From assembly GCA_016208105.1 (NCBI GenBank), contig JACQYS010000022.1, forward strand, positions 310,001-374,000: a DNA stretch of 64,000 nt. Direction: 5' to 3'. The translations under genes were made by a program, and so were the position numbers. The notes below the pieces were generated by a model. That model ran no database searches. It worked only from the letters and a program-made list of their open reading frames with translations, and was not told the DNA's origin. Each line of letters opens with the position of its first letter. Position 1 is the first letter of the stretch. This DNA comes from Desulfovibrio sp. (GTDB lineage Bacteria > Desulfobacterota > Desulfovibrionia > Desulfovibrionales > Desulfovibrionaceae). Positions 9,946 through 64,000 of this stretch are shown here, piece by piece.

Positions 9946-9950
9946 GTGGT

Positions 9951-10177
9951 GCCTCTGGCGGCCAGAGAGGGCGTTGAAGAGTTTGGATGCCTCCGGCGGC
10001 CAGAGAGGGCGCCGCCCTCTCTGGACTCTCCCGCCAGGGGGATGATCCCCCTGGACCCGCAACTGCTTCGCGTCGCTCTATGGCAATACGTCCGGGCACG
10101 GACGCGAAGCCCATAAAAGTTTTTTGGGGAAGGGGGCTCGGGGGAAACCCCTTTTGTTCACAAAAGGGGTTTCCCCC
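9951..10177 (-). repeat. R1 structured repeat, copy 1
   Basis: Read on the minus strand it is a chain of hairpins: a 17-bp perfect stem (10140-10177) containing the aldehyde oxidoreductase stop codon; a CTTCGCGTC/GACGCGAAG stem; CCAGGGGGAT/ATCCCCCTGG; and CCAGAGAGGG/CCCTCTCTGG. It ends in GGCCGCCGGAGG. The last module is partly duplicated (9951-9973 against 9989-10011), and the outermost copy ends in AGAGG just before the aldolase start. A 41-bp block (9990-10030) is the exact reverse complement of 62944-62984. Confidence 0.8.
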
Positions 10178-11921
10178 GGAAACTCTCTTCCAATCCCAAT
10201 TCTTTCGCCTTCTCTTCCTTCGGCATTCCGTCTTCGGTCAGCCCGCGTATGGCGTAATATTTCGCCCTGGCCTCCAGGAATTCTTCGCGGGGCACGGGGC
10301 GGATATCTTGCGCTAGGCCGTGTTCGCCGGGGGCTTCGAAGAACCGGGCCGGTATGTCGTCGTGGGCGCTGGTGAAGCCCAACCGCGCGTTCATGATGCG
10401 TTCGCGGTAGTAGATGCGCTCGCCCAGGCGCAGGAGGTCCTGGGCCGAGGACGGCTCGCCGGTGACGGCCTGGTAGGCGTGGGCGTATTCTTCCAGCGAG
10501 GCGCCGAAGAAGATGAACTTGCAGGCTGTTAACGAGTCCACCACGGCGTTGGCGTCTTCGGCTATCTTTATGATGCGGGCCTTTCCCAGGAAGCTGAAGC
10601 GGTCCGTGGCCACGGGCTTGCGAAGTATTTCGTGGCTGACCGGATAGGCGCGCAGATGGCAGCCCCCCCGGGTGGACAGCGCGTAGGCCAGGCTCATGCC
10701 GTAGGCCCCGCGCGGGTCGTAGGCGGGCAGTTCCATGCCCTTGACGGTCATGGCGGTTTCGGGACGCCCCTTGGCGGCGGCGTACCCGGCGGCGCCAAGG
10801 CCCAGTTCGGGAAGGCGGCCGTGGCCGATTTCGTTGAGCAGTTCGAGTACGCGCGAGGGGGTAAGGCGCTCGCCGGTGATTTCGGCGTGGCAGGCCAGGG
10901 TCACGGCGCTGGAGATGGTGTCCATGCCCAGGTCGTTGCACAGGGCGTTGGCCGCGACCACCAGCTCCATGTCCTCAAGGCCGATCAGGGCCGTGAAGTG
11001 GGACATGGTCTCGAATTCGGGCATGGAACGCCCGTCCTCGGCCACCTTCTTGCACTGGATGTGGCAGCCCCGGCAGCCGTGCTTGCTGGTGTGGTAGGTT
11101 TCCTTGTAGCGCACGGCGTTCAGGTTTCCGGCCGGGTCGAAGTGTGAGGCCCTGAAGTTGTCCGTGGGCATCATGCGCCGCGAATCCATCAGGTCGTAGA
11201 GGGCGCCGGTGCCGAAGCAGGAGAAGCCGTGTCCGCCGGAGAGCACGGGGGATGCGGCCACCAGGCGAAAGATGTCCTCGCGGGCTTTCTTCAAGCCTTC
11301 CGGGTCGGCCACGCGGACCTTGCCCGAACCTTTGACAGCCAGGTACTTCAGGTTCTTGGCCGCCCAGGAAAGGCCCATGCCGCCGCGCCCGAAGGCATGG
11401 TGTTCGTCCACCATGACGCAGGAGAACTTGACGCCCGATTCGGCGGCCGGTCCCACAACTGCCATTGATCCTTTGAAGTCCAGGGACTGACGCACCTGGG
11501 CGCGGGTGAGGCCGGAAAGGAAGGATGCATCCCGGAGCTGGACGGAGCCGTCCTCGATGACGATACCGATAGGGTGCTTTGCCTGGCCGGTGATGACGAT
11601 TCCGTCGAGTCCGGCCTTTTTCAGCTGCGTGCCCAGGCTGCCGCCCACGGAGGCGTCGCTGAAGGTCCCGGTGAGGGGGGAGCGGGTGGCCAGGCAGGCC
11701 CGGCCGGAGGTGGGGGCTATGGTGGCCACCAGGGGGCCGGTGAAAAGGCACAAGGGCATGTCCGGATGGTTCCAGGGCAGGTGGATGAAGGGGTCCAGAT
11801 AATGCCCGGCCAGGCCTTTGCCGCCGATGTTTCGGCGCAAGACCTCGCTGTCGGACGCTTCCCTGGTGACGCTTCCCGTCGAGAGGTCCACCCGCAATAT
11901 GGTGCCCGTCCAGCCGTTCAT
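10158..11921 (-). CDS. Aldehyde:ferredoxin oxidoreductase (tungstopterin)
   Basis: A 587-residue cytosolic enzyme of the AOR family that oxidises aldehydes to acids with ferredoxin as acceptor, using a bis-pterin tungsten (or molybdenum) centre and a 4Fe-4S cluster. The N-terminal half has the family pattern (NIGGKGLAGHYL, TGPLVATIAPTSGRACLATRSPLTGTF, GRGGMG). CRGCHIQC supplies three cluster cysteines (C-x2-C-x3-C), and the fourth is the Cys of SLTACKF near residue 490. Length is about normal (around 600). The final residues (ESFRGKPLL) and the stop codon lie inside the first hairpin of R1, so the repeat forms part of the coding end. The downstream partner is the class II aldolase. Confidence 0.92.
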   Translation of the reverse strand: MNGWTGTILRVDLSTGSVTREASDSEVLRRNIGGKGLAGHYLDPFIHLPWNHPDMPLCLFTGPLVATIAPTSGRACLATRSPLTGTFSDASVGGSLGTQLKKAGLDGIVITGQAKHPIGIVIEDGSVQLRDASFLSGLTRAQVRQSLDFKGSMAVVGPAAESGVKFSCVMVDEHHAFGRGGMGLSWAAKNLKYLAVKGSGKVRVADPEGLKKAREDIFRLVAASPVLSGGHGFSCFGTGALYDLMDSRRMMPTDNFRASHFDPAGNLNAVRYKETYHTSKHGCRGCHIQCKKVAEDGRSMPEFETMSHFTALIGLEDMELVVAANALCNDLGMDTISSAVTLACHAEITGERLTPSRVLELLNEIGHGRLPELGLGAAGYAAAKGRPETAMTVKGMELPAYDPRGAYGMSLAYALSTRGGCHLRAYPVSHEILRKPVATDRFSFLGKARIIKIAEDANAVVDSLTACKFIFFGASLEEYAHAYQAVTGEPSSAQDLLRLGERIYYRERIMNARLGFTSAHDDIPARFFEAPGEHGLAQDIRPVPREEFLEARAKYYAIRGLTEDGMPKEEKAKELGLEESFRGKPLL

Positions 11922-29482: not shown

Positions 29483-30694
29483 ATGAAGCGCCGCCAATTT
29501 CTTTCGACCATGGCCGTGGCCGCCCTGGGAACGGCTGTGCCCTCATTGCTGGCGGCCCAGGAGCAGGGCTCGTCCAAGCGGCTCATTGTGCTGTTTCTGC
29601 GCGGCGGCCTGGACGGTTTGTCCGCGGTGGCTCCGGTGGAGGACCGCTGGTACTTCCAGGCGCGTCCCACCATCGCCCTTCCCCCTCCGGGCCAGGAGGG
29701 CGGAACGCTTCCCCTGGCTCCCGGCTTCGGCCTGCACCCGGCTCTTGAGCCGCTTCTGGAGTATTGGCGGAACGGCTCCCTGGCGCTTCTTCCGGCGTGT
29801 GGCCTTTCAAGCCCCATGCGCACCCATCCGGAAGCCCAGCGGGCCATGGAAAGCGGGCAGCCCTTGGAACGCCACTTCCGCGACGGCTGGCTGGCAAGAC
29901 TTCTGCCGCTCATCGGCAAGGACGCCAAGGCCCTTACGCTGTCCCCCACGCCGCCGCTCATCGGACAGGGGAAGCCCGGAGTTCAGAACGTCCGCCCCAC
30001 GAATTTTCCGCCTTCGGTGTGGAGGTTGGAGCGCCCGGGTATTTTCTCGTCCTTCGACGCGATCTATGCCGGGAACGATCCCTTGAGCCGGTCCTACCGT
30101 CAGTCGCAGACCGTGCTGCGCAACAGAATGACCGAGCTGGACAGGGAAATCACCGTATCCGCTTCCGGTGCGCCATCGGTGCACGCTCTACCGACCCTGG
30201 CAGGGCAGATAGCCTCCTACCTTGAGAAAAATCCGGCCACCAAGCTTGTTTTCGCAGCCTTGGGAGGCCTTGACGCCCATTTCGAGCAGGGGGCGGGCAA
30301 GGGCAAGCTGTCCGAGGCCTTCTTCTCTCTGGGGAAGGGCCTTTCTACGCTGGCCAAGGCCCTAGGGCCTAACATGTCGGACACCGCCGTGCTGGTGATG
30401 AGCGAATTCGGCCGCAGCCTTCGCGAGAACGAGTTCGCGGGCACGGAGAACGGCCACGGAACGCTATTCATGCTTCTTGGGGGCTCCGTGTCCGGCGGGA
30501 CCATGCACGGCCCTTGGCCGGGGCTTGCTCCGGACAAGCTCTCCGACGGGCTTGATCTGGCCGTGACCGTTGATTTCAGGGACGTGATCGCCCAGATAAC
30601 CACCTCCCACTTCGGGCTGGGCAAGGAGGCCGTGTCCCAGGTTCTGCCCGGTTTTACGCCCTCGTCCAGCCTTCCTGGAATCTTCAAGGGCTAG
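29483..30694 (+). CDS. DUF1501-family Tat-exported protein
   Basis: The 403-residue product begins MKRRQFLSTMAVAALG, a twin-arginine signal peptide, so it should be exported folded by the Tat system (tatC is at 22.1 kb). The mature part has the DUF1501 alkaline-phosphatase-like pattern: LIVLFLRGGLDGLSAVAPVED, ALGGLDAHFEQ, VLVMSEFGRSLREN and NGHGTLFMLLGG. These could place metal ligands (Asp, His, Glu), but activity is unproven. The TAG stop codon provides the first base of repeat R2. Confidence 0.87.
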   Translation: MKRRQFLSTMAVAALGTAVPSLLAAQEQGSSKRLIVLFLRGGLDGLSAVAPVEDRWYFQARPTIALPPPGQEGGTLPLAPGFGLHPALEPLLEYWRNGSLALLPACGLSSPMRTHPEAQRAMESGQPLERHFRDGWLARLLPLIGKDAKALTLSPTPPLIGQGKPGVQNVRPTNFPPSVWRLERPGIFSSFDAIYAGNDPLSRSYRQSQTVLRNRMTELDREITVSASGAPSVHALPTLAGQIASYLEKNPATKLVFAALGGLDAHFEQGAGKGKLSEAFFSLGKGLSTLAKALGPNMSDTAVLVMSEFGRSLRENEFAGTENGHGTLFMLLGGSVSGGTMHGPWPGLAPDKLSDGLDLAVTVDFRDVIAQITTSHFGLGKEAVSQVLPGFTPSSSLPGIFKG

Positions 30695-30818
30695 CAGCCT
30701 GTTGAAAAAATCCCGCTGGCGGCGTTGCCGTTCAAAAGTCAAACCTTCGCGTATGTCAAATACGCGTCAGCCTTGACTTTTTCCTGCGCCTTGCCAGCTG
30801 GTTTTTTGAACAGGCCGC
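30694..30818 (+). repeat. R2 long-hairpin repeat, copy A
   Basis: A 125-bp sequence that folds on itself end to end: GC(A)GCCTGTTGAAAAA with TTTTTGAACAGGCCGC, GCTGGCGGCGTTGCC with a GGC-AAGGCGC counterpart, AAAAGTCAA with TTGACTTTT, and a GCGTAT/ATACGC tip. By my count it differs from copy B (42951-43075, opposite strand) at about 13 positions. At least one change is compensatory (T-A to C-G in the outer stem). It begins at the G of the upstream TAG stop codon. Confidence 0.85.
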
Positions 30819-30948
30819 GACGAGCTACTTTTACAACAGGCGGCTAGCACCCTTAAGATTTCGTTTCAGCTACCGACAAGAATCCTTGGGAAGGGACCGC
30901 GTTCTTGGCGCGGTTGACACGGATGTCCGATTGCCCAAGGAGTTGCCC

Positions 30949-42887: not shown

Positions 42888-42950
42888 GCAAAGTCCTTTC
42901 AGCGTATGATGCGCTTGGGGCCAATAAGCCCGGTGCACAGGCCTATCTTT

Positions 42951-43075
42951 GCGGCCCGTTCAAAAAAGCGGCTGGCAAGGCGCGTAAAAAAGTCAAGGCT
43001 GAAGCGTATTTGACATACGCGAAGGTTTGACTTTTGCGCGGCAACGCCGCCAGCGGAAATTTTTCAACGGGCCGC
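42951..43075 (-). repeat. R2 long-hairpin repeat, copy B
   Basis: Reverse-complement relative of 30694-30818, same length. The outer arms GCGGCCCGTT/AACGGGCCGC are perfectly paired. On the minus strand it begins at the final G of the TAG stop codon of the MgtE_N-CBS gene, exactly as copy A does at the DUF1501 gene, and precedes the NRAMP-like gene by about 60 bp. It may attenuate read-through between the two. Confidence 0.85.
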
Positions 43076-44355
43076 TAGAAACGGCGCTTGGCCCTGAAAC
43101 GCTTCCAGCGCAGGGCGAAGCGCAGCGAATGGGTGAGCACGTCGTCCGCGGTGACCACTCCGGCCATGGCCCCGTCCTCGTCCAACACCGGCACCGCCCA
43201 CAGCCCGTACTTCTCCACGATCTCCAGCACGTCGTCGGCGGAGGTGTCCACGTTCACGGTCTTCAAATTCTGGCTCATGATCTGTTCGAGCGATTCCATG
43301 GGCTTTGCGCCAAGAATCTCCCGCAGGCTGACGACGCCAAGCGGCTTCAAGGCCTCGTCCAGAACATAGACGTAGTAGATCATCTCCATTTCCAGGGCCT
43401 TGGTCCGAATCCGGGTCAGGGCCGCCTCGGCGGACATGGAGGGGGGCAGGGCCAGAAATTCGTTGATCATGAGGCCGCCGGCCGAGTCCTCCTCGTGCTC
43501 CAGGAGTTCCTGGACCTTTTCGGCGTCCTCGGCGTCCATAAGCCCGAGCAGTTCCTTGGCCGTGTCGTCGGGCAGGTCGGCCAGCACGTCGGCGGCCTCG
43601 TCCGGGGCCATCTCCTCCAGAATGTCCGAGGCGTGCTCCTTCTCCAGGCTGCTTAAGAGTCTGGTGCCCACCTCGGGTTCCATCTCGGCCAGGGTCTCGC
43701 CCGCTGTCTCGGTGTTGAGCGACAGGAACATCTTCTCGGCCTCGCCGTGGGGCAGCTGGGCGATAATTTCGGCCAGGTCCGCCGGGTGCATGTCGCCCAG
43801 TTTGTCGCGGGTCACGGTGAGCGAGAGTGATGTCATCTTGTCGTCAAGAGGCTGCACGAACTGCCAGCCGATTTCCTTGTGGGGCAGCTGGCGCTTGAAG
43901 ATACTGGTGACGAACGACCAGACGCGCTCCTGCTTGAGCCTGCGGGCCAGACCGCGCACGCCGGTGTCCACGGCCGTGACGCACAGGGCGTCCCGGCAGC
44001 CTTCGATCTTCAAGTCGTTCACGCGCACCAGCCGGGCGCCTTCCACATCCACGATCTGCTTGTCCAGGATGTCGCGGCGCACAAGGATATTCCCCTGTTC
44101 CGCGGGGTCGAACGGCTCGGCCGGGGCCCGCTCCAGGTCCACGGCGATGACGAAGACGTTGAACAGGTCCACCCCGGCCCAGGGGATGTTGGACAGGAGC
44201 TTGCCCTTCTTGACGATGAGGCTCGAGATGTGCGGGAGGCCGTCGCCTCTGGTCATGGCCAGGTCGTGCAGGCGCCCCAGGGGCTCGCCGGTCTTGTCGA
44301 TGACGGTCTTGCCCAGGAAGTTGCTGGCGAAATAGGCGGCGCTGGATGTGCTCAT
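43075..44355 (-). CDS. Soluble PRC-barrel / MgtE_N / CBS protein
   Basis: The 426-residue product has no membrane helix. PRC-barrel-like beta segments occur at about 12-90 (GKTVIDKTGEPLGRLHDLAM) and 95-170. A MgtE N-terminal superhelical domain spans about 205-320 (DMHPADLAEIIAQLPHGEAEKMFLSL, SDILEEMAPDEAADVLADLPDDTAKELL). Two CBS motifs follow at 325-420 (ALPPSMSAEAALTRIR, VVSLREIL, VNVDTSADDVLEIVEKYGLWAVPVLDEDG). In MgtE these cytosolic parts sense Mg and gate the channel; here the channel domain is absent. Together with the NRAMP-like carrier downstream it looks like a two-protein metal-regulated uptake unit. Start ATG 44355. Confidence 0.85.
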   Translation of the reverse strand: MSTSSAAYFASNFLGKTVIDKTGEPLGRLHDLAMTRGDGLPHISSLIVKKGKLLSNIPWAGVDLFNVFVIAVDLERAPAEPFDPAEQGNILVRRDILDKQIVDVEGARLVRVNDLKIEGCRDALCVTAVDTGVRGLARRLKQERVWSFVTSIFKRQLPHKEIGWQFVQPLDDKMTSLSLTVTRDKLGDMHPADLAEIIAQLPHGEAEKMFLSLNTETAGETLAEMEPEVGTRLLSSLEKEHASDILEEMAPDEAADVLADLPDDTAKELLGLMDAEDAEKVQELLEHEEDSAGGLMINEFLALPPSMSAEAALTRIRTKALEMEMIYYVYVLDEALKPLGVVSLREILGAKPMESLEQIMSQNLKTVNVDTSADDVLEIVEKYGLWAVPVLDEDGAMAGVVTADDVLTHSLRFALRWKRFRAKRRF

Positions 44356-48985: not shown

Positions 48986-49037
48986 ACGCGAAGCGGAAAG
49001 GGATTCCAAAGGGCTTAAGCCCTTTGGCCGCCGGAGG
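48986..49037 (+). repeat. R1 structured repeat, short copy 3
   Basis: Only the 3' part of R1 is present: CGCGAAGCGG, then the hairpin CCAAAGGGCTTAAGCCCTTTGG as two paired arms, then CCGCCGGAGG. The hairpin sits where the other copies have CCAGAGAGGG/CCCTCTCTGG, so the stem sequence changed while both pairing and flanks stayed. Here it lies downstream of livF and points against the flanking genes. Confidence 0.6.
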
Positions 49038-49088
49038 CGATCTTGCGGCCCTCTCCGCCTGTATTCGGAGCTGGTTTTATGGATGGGG

Positions 49089-62776: not shown

Positions 62777-62793
62777 GAATGTATTTCGGAGAA

Positions 62794-62985
62794 GCCTCCG
62801 GCGGCCAGAGAGGAAACTTTCCCAAAAAAGTTTCCTCTCTGGGCTCTCCTTCAAAAACTTTCAATGGGCTTCGCGTTCATCAGCGGGAAACCCGCGATGA
62901 ACGCGAAGCGGTAACGGGTCCAGGGAACGAAGTTCCCTGGCCGGAGAGTCCAGAGAGGGCGGCGCCCTCTCTGGCCGCCGGAGGC
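62794..62985 (+). repeat. R1 structured repeat, copy 2, with 19-bp terminal inverted repeats
   Basis: GCCTCCGGCGGCCAGAGAG (62794-62812) is the exact inverse of 62967-62985, giving perfect 19-bp ends. Between them lie hairpins: AGAGAGGAAACTT/AAGTTTCCTCTCT, CTTCGCGTTCATC/GATGAACGCGAAG with an inner GCGGG/CCCGC, CCAGGGAAC/GTTCCCTGG and CCAGAGAGGG/CCCTCTCTGG. The order and conserved linkers (ATGGGCTTCGCG, CGGGTCCAGGG, GAGAGTCCAGAGAGGG) equal copy 1. The closing GGAGG lies 9 bp before the next start codon. Confidence 0.85.
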
Positions 62986-62993
62986 CTCCCCCC

Positions 62994-64000
62994 ATGCTTA
63001 TAGGCTTCGACGTCAGCCAGACCGGCGCGGGCAAGGCCGGATGCGGCTATCTGGCCCATGGCTTGGTGAACGCCCTGGCCACGCGCGGCACCCGGTTCGT
63101 GTTCTATCCGCATTTCGGCGACCTCTACTGGGAGCCCAACCCCAAGGCGTGTTCATGCCCCGGCTCGGGCTGCACGCTAGGCCCCACGTTTCGCTGGTTC
63201 GAAAAGAGCAAGACCTTCTGGCGAAAGCCCCCGGCGGACTTCGAGGCCAGGCTCGGCAACCCGGACATCGTTCATTCCAATAATTTCTTTTGTCCAACGG
63301 GGCTTCATAAGGCCCGGCTGGTCTACACCCTCTACGACCTCTCCTTCATGGAGAACCCCCAGTGGACCACCGAGCAGAACCGGGTGGGCTGCCTGGAGGG
63401 CGTGTTCGGGGCCAGCCTGCGCGCCGATTTCATGCTGTCCATCTCCCAGGCGACGCTTGAACATTTCCTGCGGATCTATCCGCACTATCCGCGCGAGCGC
63501 ACGGCCGTGATGCATCTGGCCAGCCGCTTTGGCGAGCAGAGCCCCCGGCGCGCTCCCAAGCGCCTGCGCGGGGTGACGCCCGGGGAGTACTGGCTGTGCG
63601 TGGGCACCATAGAGCCCAGGAAGAACCAGAAAGCCCTGTTCGAGGCCCTGGCCGCTCTGCCCGGAAAGCGGCAGTTGGTGCTGGCCGGGGGGCGCGGCTG
63701 GTTGATGGACGACATGGCCAGGATGGTGAGCGAGCTGGGCGTGGCCTCCCGGGTGAAATTGACGGGCTACGTGGACGACGAGGAGCTGGCCTGGCTCTAT
63801 GCCAACTGCCTGGGCTTCGTGTATCCGTCGCTCTTTGAGGGGTTCGGGCTGCCGGTGCTTGAGGCCATGAGCCTGGGCGCACCGGTGATAACGTCCAATG
63901 TGTCCAGCCTGCCCGAGGTGGCCGGGGACGCGGCGATTCTGGTCGATCCGCTGGATACTGGAGCCATCGCGGCCGCCATGGCCAGGCTGGAAGGGGACGG
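62994..64000 (+). CDS. GT4-family glycosyltransferase, 3'-truncated by window edge
   Basis: The frame is open from ATG 62994 to the right edge (at least 335 residues). MLIGFDVSQTGAGKAGCGYLAHGLVNAL opens the GT-B acceptor half; VYTLYDLSFMENP, YWLCVGTIEPRKNQKALFEALA, VKLTGYVDDEELAWLYANCLGFVYPSLFEGFGLPVLEAMSLGAPVITSN and SLPEVAGDAAILVDP form the donor half. Only the last helix or two are missing. Its only good ribosome site, GGAGG, belongs to the end of the R1 repeat. A small cysteine cluster (CSCPGSGC) near residue 55 is unusual for the family. Confidence 0.88.
   Translation, partial: MLIGFDVSQTGAGKAGCGYLAHGLVNALATRGTRFVFYPHFGDLYWEPNPKACSCPGSGCTLGPTFRWFEKSKTFWRKPPADFEARLGNPDIVHSNNFFCPTGLHKARLVYTLYDLSFMENPQWTTEQNRVGCLEGVFGASLRADFMLSISQATLEHFLRIYPHYPRERTAVMHLASRFGEQSPRRAPKRLRGVTPGEYWLCVGTIEPRKNQKALFEALAALPGKRQLVLAGGRGWLMDDMARMVSELGVASRVKLTGYVDDEELAWLYANCLGFVYPSLFEGFGLPVLEAMSLGAPVITSNVSSLPEVAGDAAILVDPLDTGAIAAAMARLEGD

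Follow-up and report, generated by a model that had tools for sequence, protein, structure and literature searches.

The R1 copies of the window

The window, which is the whole stretch of DNA analysed here (64,000 nt, G000:C22:310001-374000), belongs to a genome of 4.18 Mb in 31 contigs (G000, the home genome). It carries three copies of the repeat R1 (Table 1). All three had been named in a preliminary description of this DNA and were found where they had been placed or a few bases off; the short third copy is present, but its unit begins at 49000 and not at 48986. As described earlier, copies 1 and 2 have hairpin order and linkers in common. The inverted-repeat pair I3 aligns these two copies over 55 nt with 96% identity.

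Copy 1 is bounded by GCCTCCGGCGGCC and GGCCGCCGGAGGC, and GGAGG in its right end lies 9 nt upstream of a predicted ATG at 62994. Perfect terminal inverted repeats of 19 bp had been attributed to copy 2. This attribution fails, because the two repeats (10160-10178 and 10139-10157) are the arms of a single hairpin stem at one end of the element; terminal inverted repeats are instead a feature of copy 1 (62788-62813 and 62966-62991, 26 nt, 92%). The first hairpin of copy 2 gives the predicted upstream gene (10158-11921, minus strand) its last codons and its stop codon TGA in the window genome (frames judged by eye), and the right end of this copy is partly duplicated (9950-9973 versus 9988-10011, 96%). 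A scan of the window for perfect class I triplex motifs of at least six triplets returned three, which are the three R1 copies, and none in 10 shuffles. The window also contains a pair of inverted repeats of 133 nt, 89% complementary and 12 kb apart (30691-30823 and 42946-43078).

Table 1. Coordinates and anatomy of the R1 copies in the window
Feature	Position	Strand
Copy 1, full two-ended mosaic element, 192 bp	62794..62985	+
Copy 1, left end motif, GGCCGCCGGAGGC on the minus strand	62794..62806	-
Copy 1, left terminal hairpin, plus strand reads CCAGAGAGGAAACTTT...AAGTTTCCTCTCTGG	62805..62842	-
Copy 1, left-unit third strand GAAGGAGAG (minus strand), mirrors the purine arm; arm/third-strand state AGAGAGGA/CGAGAGGA	62844..62852	-
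Copy 1, internal long hairpin GCTTCGCGTTCATC / GATGAACGCGAAGC, loop holds GCGGG-AAA-CCCGC	62868..62909	+
Copy 1, internal short unit GGGT-CC-AGGGAAC-GAA-GTTCCCT-GG, 4 legal triplets (read from sequence)	62916..62940	+
Copy 1, right terminal unit, third strand GGAGAGT	62943..62949	+
Copy 1, right unit, purine arm-loop-pyrimidine arm AGAGAGGG-CGGCG-CCCTCTCT	62952..62972	+
Copy 1, right end motif GGCCGCCGGAGGC	62973..62985	+
Copy 2, with long first hairpin and partly duplicated right end	9951..10178	-
Copy 2, first hairpin, 19-bp perfect stem, 2-nt loop	10139..10178	-
Copy 2, GCTTCGCGTC / GACGCGAAGC hairpin	10065..10110	-
Copy 2, internal unit GGGT-CC-AGGGGGATCATCCCCCT-GG	10034..10058	-
Copy 2, right terminal unit GGGAGAGT-CC-AGAGAGGG-loop-CCCTCTCT-GG-CCGCCGGAGGC, 8 legal triplets (read from sequence)	9989..10032	-
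Copy 2, second, duplicated end motif GGCCGCCAGAGGC	9951..9963	-
Copy 3, single-ended unit GGGATT-CC-AAAGGG-loop-CCCTTT-GG-CCGCCGGAGGC, 6 legal triplets	49000..49038	+

Copy number, range and modules

R1 is a high-copy mosaic family of dispersed intergenic DNA repeats. The further copies expected from the preliminary description exist: the 4.18 Mb home genome holds 85 exact TGGCCGCCGGAGGC ends, compared with none for the reversed control, and at least 68 BLAST matches to copy 1 (inverted and partial matches counted, 40 of 113 first-look candidates scored). A survey of 59 genomes, namely G000 and 58 of its relatives, counted 65-164 instances of GGCCGCCGGAGGC per genome in the seven members of the same genus (G000-G006). 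The counts are 0-245 for the family's other genera and 0-4 for the order's other families, and the reversed control gave 0-3 hits within the family and 0-2 outside. R1 is found in several genera of sulfate reducers at up to 664 ends per genome, the number counted in Desulfoluna limicola (class Desulfobacteria; control 0). A stricter unit pattern was found in 4 of 297 genomes of the phylum, each of them one of the sample's 11 genomes from the same family, and underestimates the range since it is specific to AAAGG arms. A 14-mer scan of genome and viral contigs led to 11 examined loci, nine of Desulfovibrionaceae type and two of Desulfoluna limicola; the matches listed include a contig of Fundidesulfovibrio agrisoli SG106 that carries the R1 motif, and many from high-GC genomes of other groups. 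The hosts of R1 are sulfate-reducing bacteria, namely Fundidesulfovibrio and relatives, and also Desulfoluna.

On the G-rich strand, the terminal unit reads 5'-(purine tract)-T-CC-(purine arm)-loop-(pyrimidine arm)-GG-CCGCCGGAGGC. Most ends stand alone: of those at the examined loci, 203 lack a second end within 420 bp, against 25 that have a partner. A frequent order of modules, judged by eye, is end hairpin, third strand, a few AT-rich bases, GCTTCGCG hairpin, and internal CCAGGGGGATCATCCCCCTGG-type unit. Some Desulfoluna limicola units share the R1 architecture (14 of 35 ends gave a hairpin, with few states). A second type of unit in this species (loci L177, L179, L559-L588) reads CTGTTTGTCAAACTTTTCAAAAGTTTGGCCCCCGGCAGGGCCGCCGGAGGC. 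The bases outside GCCTCCGGCGGCC are purine-rich, about 90% or more at positions -5 to -2 in G000, G005 and G030, fading outwards, and the R1 element may thus extend past its end motif.

A third strand that covaries with the stem

R1 units were gathered by end-anchored extraction. The ends examined for triplex potential number 238, namely 86 of 89 in G000, 17 of 127 in G001, 30 of 164 in G005, 30 of 245 in G030, 30 of 76 in G034, 21 of 38 in G021, 20 of 24 in G033 and 4 of 8 in G014. Of these, 36 had no hairpin by the rule applied and were dropped; some are chance matches in coding sequence, others are mismatched hairpins. Stems of 7 bp or more that begin with CC are present at 72 of the 86 own-genome ends, compared with a mean of 3.9 of 86 (maximum 8) when the upstream 70 nt are shuffled, and it is this control that carries weight for stem pairing, because the 143 non-redundant units (within-genome duplicates removed, 8 genomes sampled) were selected for pairing. 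The stem differences had been called compensatory, and this is borne out, as each of the stem positions 1-8 after CC has at least two Watson-Crick pair types in the 143 units. The types are A-T, G-C and, further up the stem, also C-G.

On the G-rich strand, the tract that precedes CC mirrors the purine arm and changes together with it. Examples of arms with their reversed tracts are AAAGGG/TTAGGG, AAAGGA/TTAGGA, AAGGGG/TTGGGG, AGAGGG/TGAGGG, AGAGAG/TGAGAG, AGGGAG/TGGGAG, AGGGGA/TGGGGA and AAAGGG/TTTGGG. In the 115 CCA-type units among the 143, arm and third strand covary at arm positions 2, 3, 5 and 6, with Fisher p values of 1e-12 to 5e-26 that are too small, since the units were treated as independent and states are partly common by descent, so that independent events are far fewer than such values imply. 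Position 2 has 32 G.G and 80 T.A combinations against 2 crossed and 1 other (p 5e-26), and position 5 has 9 A.A and 99 G.G (p 1e-12); the values for positions 3 and 6 are 3e-17 and 3e-13. Positions 1 and 4 hardly vary, and position 7 is not tracked significantly by the third strand (p 0.06), though 69 of 109 arms have a purine there.

The register and the orientation of this relationship are specific. In mirror register 0, 95% of the triplets at positions 2-6 are legal in the purine motif, compared with 22-65% for shifted offsets and 16-54% when the orientation is direct. When third strands are permuted among the 38 distinct arms, the legal fraction falls from the observed 0.695 to 0.535 (sd 0.026), and none of 5000 permutations reaches the observed value. 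For permutations of distinct arms within genomes, the corresponding numbers out of 5000 are 0 (G000), 3 (G005), 27 (G001), 72 (G030), 119 (G034) and 163 (G021), the single-genome signal being weaker outside the genus. For oligo-G arms, mirror symmetry is trivial. All six triplets are legal in 123 of 147 CCA-type units (sequence duplicates kept). Among the 59 units with arms other than AAAGGG, full legality is reached by 43 when each has its own third strand and by none when it has the commonest one; with their own third strands, 16 of the 59 fall short of full legality. Eight fully legal states were seen at least three times; among the non-AAAGGG states of these eight, only AGAGGG/TGAGGG and AAGGGG/TTGGGG occur in two genera, and similar states in Desulfoluna are AAGGGC/TTGGG and AGGGGA/TGGGGT.

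At the level of sequence, R1 has what defines the general class of intrastrand triplex motifs, namely three tracts with legal purine-motif triplets beyond chance, and many of the potential triplexes are short (six triplets for AAAGGG arms). No common mutational process known to us generates covarying mirror repeats, which would be predicted by triplex pairing and not by Watson-Crick pairing. The covarying third strand suggests that evolution preserves a triple-stranded DNA fold. The R1 observation is confirmed and stronger than first stated. The earlier proposal that selection acts on the folded nucleic acid and not on the sequence is supported, and extends to the third strand; its weaker half is folded RNA, because third-strand T opposite A fits only a purine-motif triplex, a form that RNA cannot adopt according to Holder 2015, and because there was no Rfam match in the window at gathering thresholds.

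Strand and nucleic acid

With third-strand T opposite A, class I legality at positions 1-2 is 96-99%. A pyrimidine-motif triplex on the other strand was considered and set aside as less consistent, being legal in just 1-26% at these positions. In 15 of 16 cases of a G.T pair at stem positions 2-6, the third-strand base is G and so follows the purine arm. Stem wobbles counted by an even rule are 20 G.T versus 8 A.C (17 versus 7 distinct contexts), and 24 versus 4 under a rule that favours G.T, a polarity that would weakly favour the G-rich strand. According to the introduction of Holder 2015 (PMC4666352), purine-motif triplexes cannot form in RNA. The data point, though not conclusively, to single-stranded DNA of the G-rich strand as the probable substrate of the fold.

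Gene context

R1 units are placed after gene ends and avoid divergent promoters. Gene predictions were taken from a home-made ORF scorer, and the counts are of ends, from seven locus sets (G033 and G014 left out). The 203 single-ended units comprise 64 between genes reading with the C-rich strand, 43 between genes reading against it, 71 in convergent and 4 in divergent gaps, 9 inside predicted genes and 12 unclassified; as a background, 400 kb of G030 have 41 convergent and 46 divergent gaps among 211 intergenic gaps of at least 30 bp. For the 54 home-genome cases in which a neighbouring gene ends at the unit, the median distance from the stop codon to the end motif downstream is 25 nt.

An in-frame start is located 5-12 nt past GGAGGC for 12 of the 44 right ends before a co-directional gene, a count made with a lenient choice and without a chance control; an R1 end may in this way act as a Shine-Dalgarno sequence. 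Within the window, one gene seems to take its stop codon and new C-terminal codons from an R1 end (10139-10178), and the start codon of another gene seems to have a well-spaced GGAGG from an R1 end (62973-62996). A replichore orientation bias in G030 was rejected, as 400 kb contain 13 plus and 13 minus ends, and the plus-only Desulfoluna matches were, as in G030, taken as an artefact of the way matches are listed.

Possible movement and mobilisation

In the sister genome G005, the loci of copies 1 and 2 are both empty: the genes that flank copy 1 are 3 nt apart, and the two genes at the copy 2 locus overlap. Such empty sites show an apparent gain in one lineage or loss in the other, and gain fits better, given the tight gene spacing in G005 and the replaced C-terminus. 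The gaps between matches at the copy 1 locus are 46 bp in G003, 115 bp in G001 and 125 bp in G004, and in G002 another R1-type element fills the same gap. The flanks of copy 2 are apart in G003.

A search for target-site duplications found none in 15 end pairs (one left end used twice), with a mean longest match of 2.87 versus 2.67 (sd 0.17). Mobilisation of R1 by a RAYT enzyme was rejected, because Y1_Tnp (PF01797) is absent from the genus: no such protein was found in G000-G006, each with 65-164 ends, and the control search in E. coli was positive. Among other end-rich genomes, Y1_Tnp is present in G011, G016 and G030, and absent in G010, G018, G021, G033 and G034. Copy 1 gave no match when carriage by plasmids and phages was considered. 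The earlier view of R1 as a small non-autonomous mobile element is partly supported: the dispersed copies, the terminal inverted repeats of copy 1 and the empty sites of two copies speak for it, and the lack of target-site duplications, the lack of a Y1_Tnp protein in the seven same-genus genomes and the 19-bp repeats, which are a stem, speak against it.

Relation to known repeat families

PIT elements are reportedly intrastrand triplex repeats, a description for which Hoyne and Maher 2000 is cited. The PIT/BoxC/TM_ECO repeats and R1 are alike dispersed intergenic repeats with purine-motif intrastrand triplex potential, without a tie to a known mobile element. The second loop is short in both, with 3 nt in TM_ECO and CC or TCC in R1. 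However, TM_ECO is of class II (Y-R-third strand), with nine triplets and a highly conserved sequence found in 262 proteobacterial genomes (Holder 2015, PMC4666352), whereas R1 is of class I (third strand-R-Y), with six triplets for AAAGGG arms, and differs further in its fixed foot, its multi-hairpin mosaics and its many stem sequences, with which the third strands covary. The TM_ECO motif CCCTCNCCC N3-6 GGGNGAGGG N3 GGGNGAGGG does not occur in the examined loci of 8 genomes, and its first two tracts alone do not occur in the window. Judged by these comparisons, R1 is like PIT/BoxC/TM_ECO in principle, but not a member. Desulfovibrio is not named in the main text of PMC4666352, and neither 'Desulf' nor 'Desulfo' appears in the main texts of PMC3733652 (on GTAG and CGTC repeats) and PMC4060949 (on patterns of DNA structure). 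Searches of open-access full text in PMC, mostly at the level of the listings, brought up no description of the R1 family.

R1 resembles REP, BIME and REPIN sequences in having a foot beside a variable palindrome, in its single, paired and mosaic forms, in its intergenic location, and in its scarcity at divergent promoters. REP sequences consist of a conserved foot beside a variable palindrome, come in single, paired and mosaic forms, and are intergenic and kept away from divergent promoters. A GTAG-type foot is not typical of R1, with GTAG or CTAC in 1 of 86 feet and CGTC or GACG in 2 of 86 (20 nt from GGCC in both counts), and a cognate Y1_Tnp is missing from the seven same-genus genomes. 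TnpA_REP acts on folded single-stranded REP (PMC8266576). R1 may work like a REP-type repeat in which a triplex replaces the plain palindrome, but by the tests applied it falls outside both the REP and the TM_ECO/BoxC families. Likeness to MITEs is seen in the two-ended copies of about 135-220 bp, some longer, and in the terminal inverted repeats of copy 1; R1 differs in being mostly single-ended and in having no visible target-site duplication.

Interpretation and alternatives

The anatomy of R1 and its covarying third strand are well supported computationally; triplex formation, mechanism of movement and function are putative. In the reading that we prefer, to which as a full explanation we assign a probability of roughly 0.6, the terminal modules of R1 are potential class I intrastrand DNA triplexes in dispersed mosaic repeats. 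On the G-rich strand, the purine arm would pair with the pyrimidine arm to form a hairpin closed by the fixed foot GGCCGCCGGAGGC, and the upstream purine tract would fold back antiparallel on the purine arm through reverse-Hoogsteen bonds (G.GC, A.AT, T.AT). The triplex would form on DNA of this strand when it is transiently single-stranded. Foot and triplex could then be recognised in trans by a DNA-processing activity that is REP-like but not a RAYT enzyme. Copies would persist at sites where the harm is small, past stop codons and inside operons, and there R1 ends could supply a stop codon or a Shine-Dalgarno GGAGG.

Several other explanations deserve consideration. R1 units might be elements of transcript 3' ends, either terminators or hairpins that stabilise mRNA, with selection acting on RNA hairpins. 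The GC-rich hairpins, the short distance from stop codons (a median of 25 nt in 54 cases), the near absence between divergent genes (4 of 203 single-ended units, with 12 more unclassified) and two terminator-like matches within the first hairpin of copy 2 would be expected on this account. We regard it as unlikely, since the orientation relative to co-directional genes is only mildly biased (64 versus 43), terminator-like matches are not above shuffles in the two copies scanned (1, outside the element, versus 0.7, and 2 versus 1.1), and an RNA hairpin leaves the mirror-image third strand unexplained. The mirror symmetry could itself result from a purine-rich composition or from the inheritance of module types, without selection for a triplex. 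Common arm states are few and the signal is partly common by descent, which fits this idea; the register and orientation controls, the permutation across arms, and the occurrence of the AGAGGG and AAGGGG states in two genera, with similar ones in Desulfoluna, make it quite improbable.

R1 as a MITE, moved by a DDE transposase that recognises terminal inverted repeats, would account for these repeats in copy 1 and for the empty sites in the sister species, but is improbable in view of the 203 ends without a partner within 420 bp versus 25 with one, and the absence of target-site duplication in 15 end pairs. A similarly low probability attaches to a DNA signal for replication or at the chromosome level, acting in polymerase pausing or supercoiling and under selection for it, with mobility incidental. 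A fold at the DNA level, the high copy number and the block to DNA polymerase in vitro by PIT elements (PMC4666352, citing Maher) speak for such a role, and the patchy number of ends in the family (0 to 245) and the lack of strand bias in the fully counted 400 kb of G030 (13 plus, 13 minus) against it.

The importance of DNA triplexes in cells has long been an open question. With the E. coli motif, no triplex was seen by DMS footprinting in vivo and earlier work saw no in vivo effect (PMC4666352). The sequence of this motif is highly conserved (PMC4666352), which leaves little room for comparative tests. In R1, stems vary and the third strand follows, so that each base triple can be tested by comparison and in swap experiments. 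Tentatively, and at rather less than even odds, R1 is a natural DNA repeat family with a preserved triple helix, in which the arm, its complement and the Hoogsteen strand vary in concert between copies and between genera. If so, it would be comparative evidence that living cells select intrastrand DNA triplexes, and would imply a novel activity that reads the triplex-hairpin and the foot GGCCGCCGGAGGC on single-stranded DNA and spreads R1.

Associated elements

A segment of 590 bp between two ends (G000:C10:34398-34987) has one predicted ORF inside and was considered as a candidate autonomous element. In addition, a multi-hairpin insert of about 76 nt is present in the loop of nine own-genome R1 end hairpins with differing arms; copies of this insert include G000:C29:149054-149129 (L549) and C3:75098-75173 (L550), and a tenth copy (L558) lies in a 3-kb locus without an exact R1 end motif. 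This insert may be an additional small element, one with hairpin loops as its targets.
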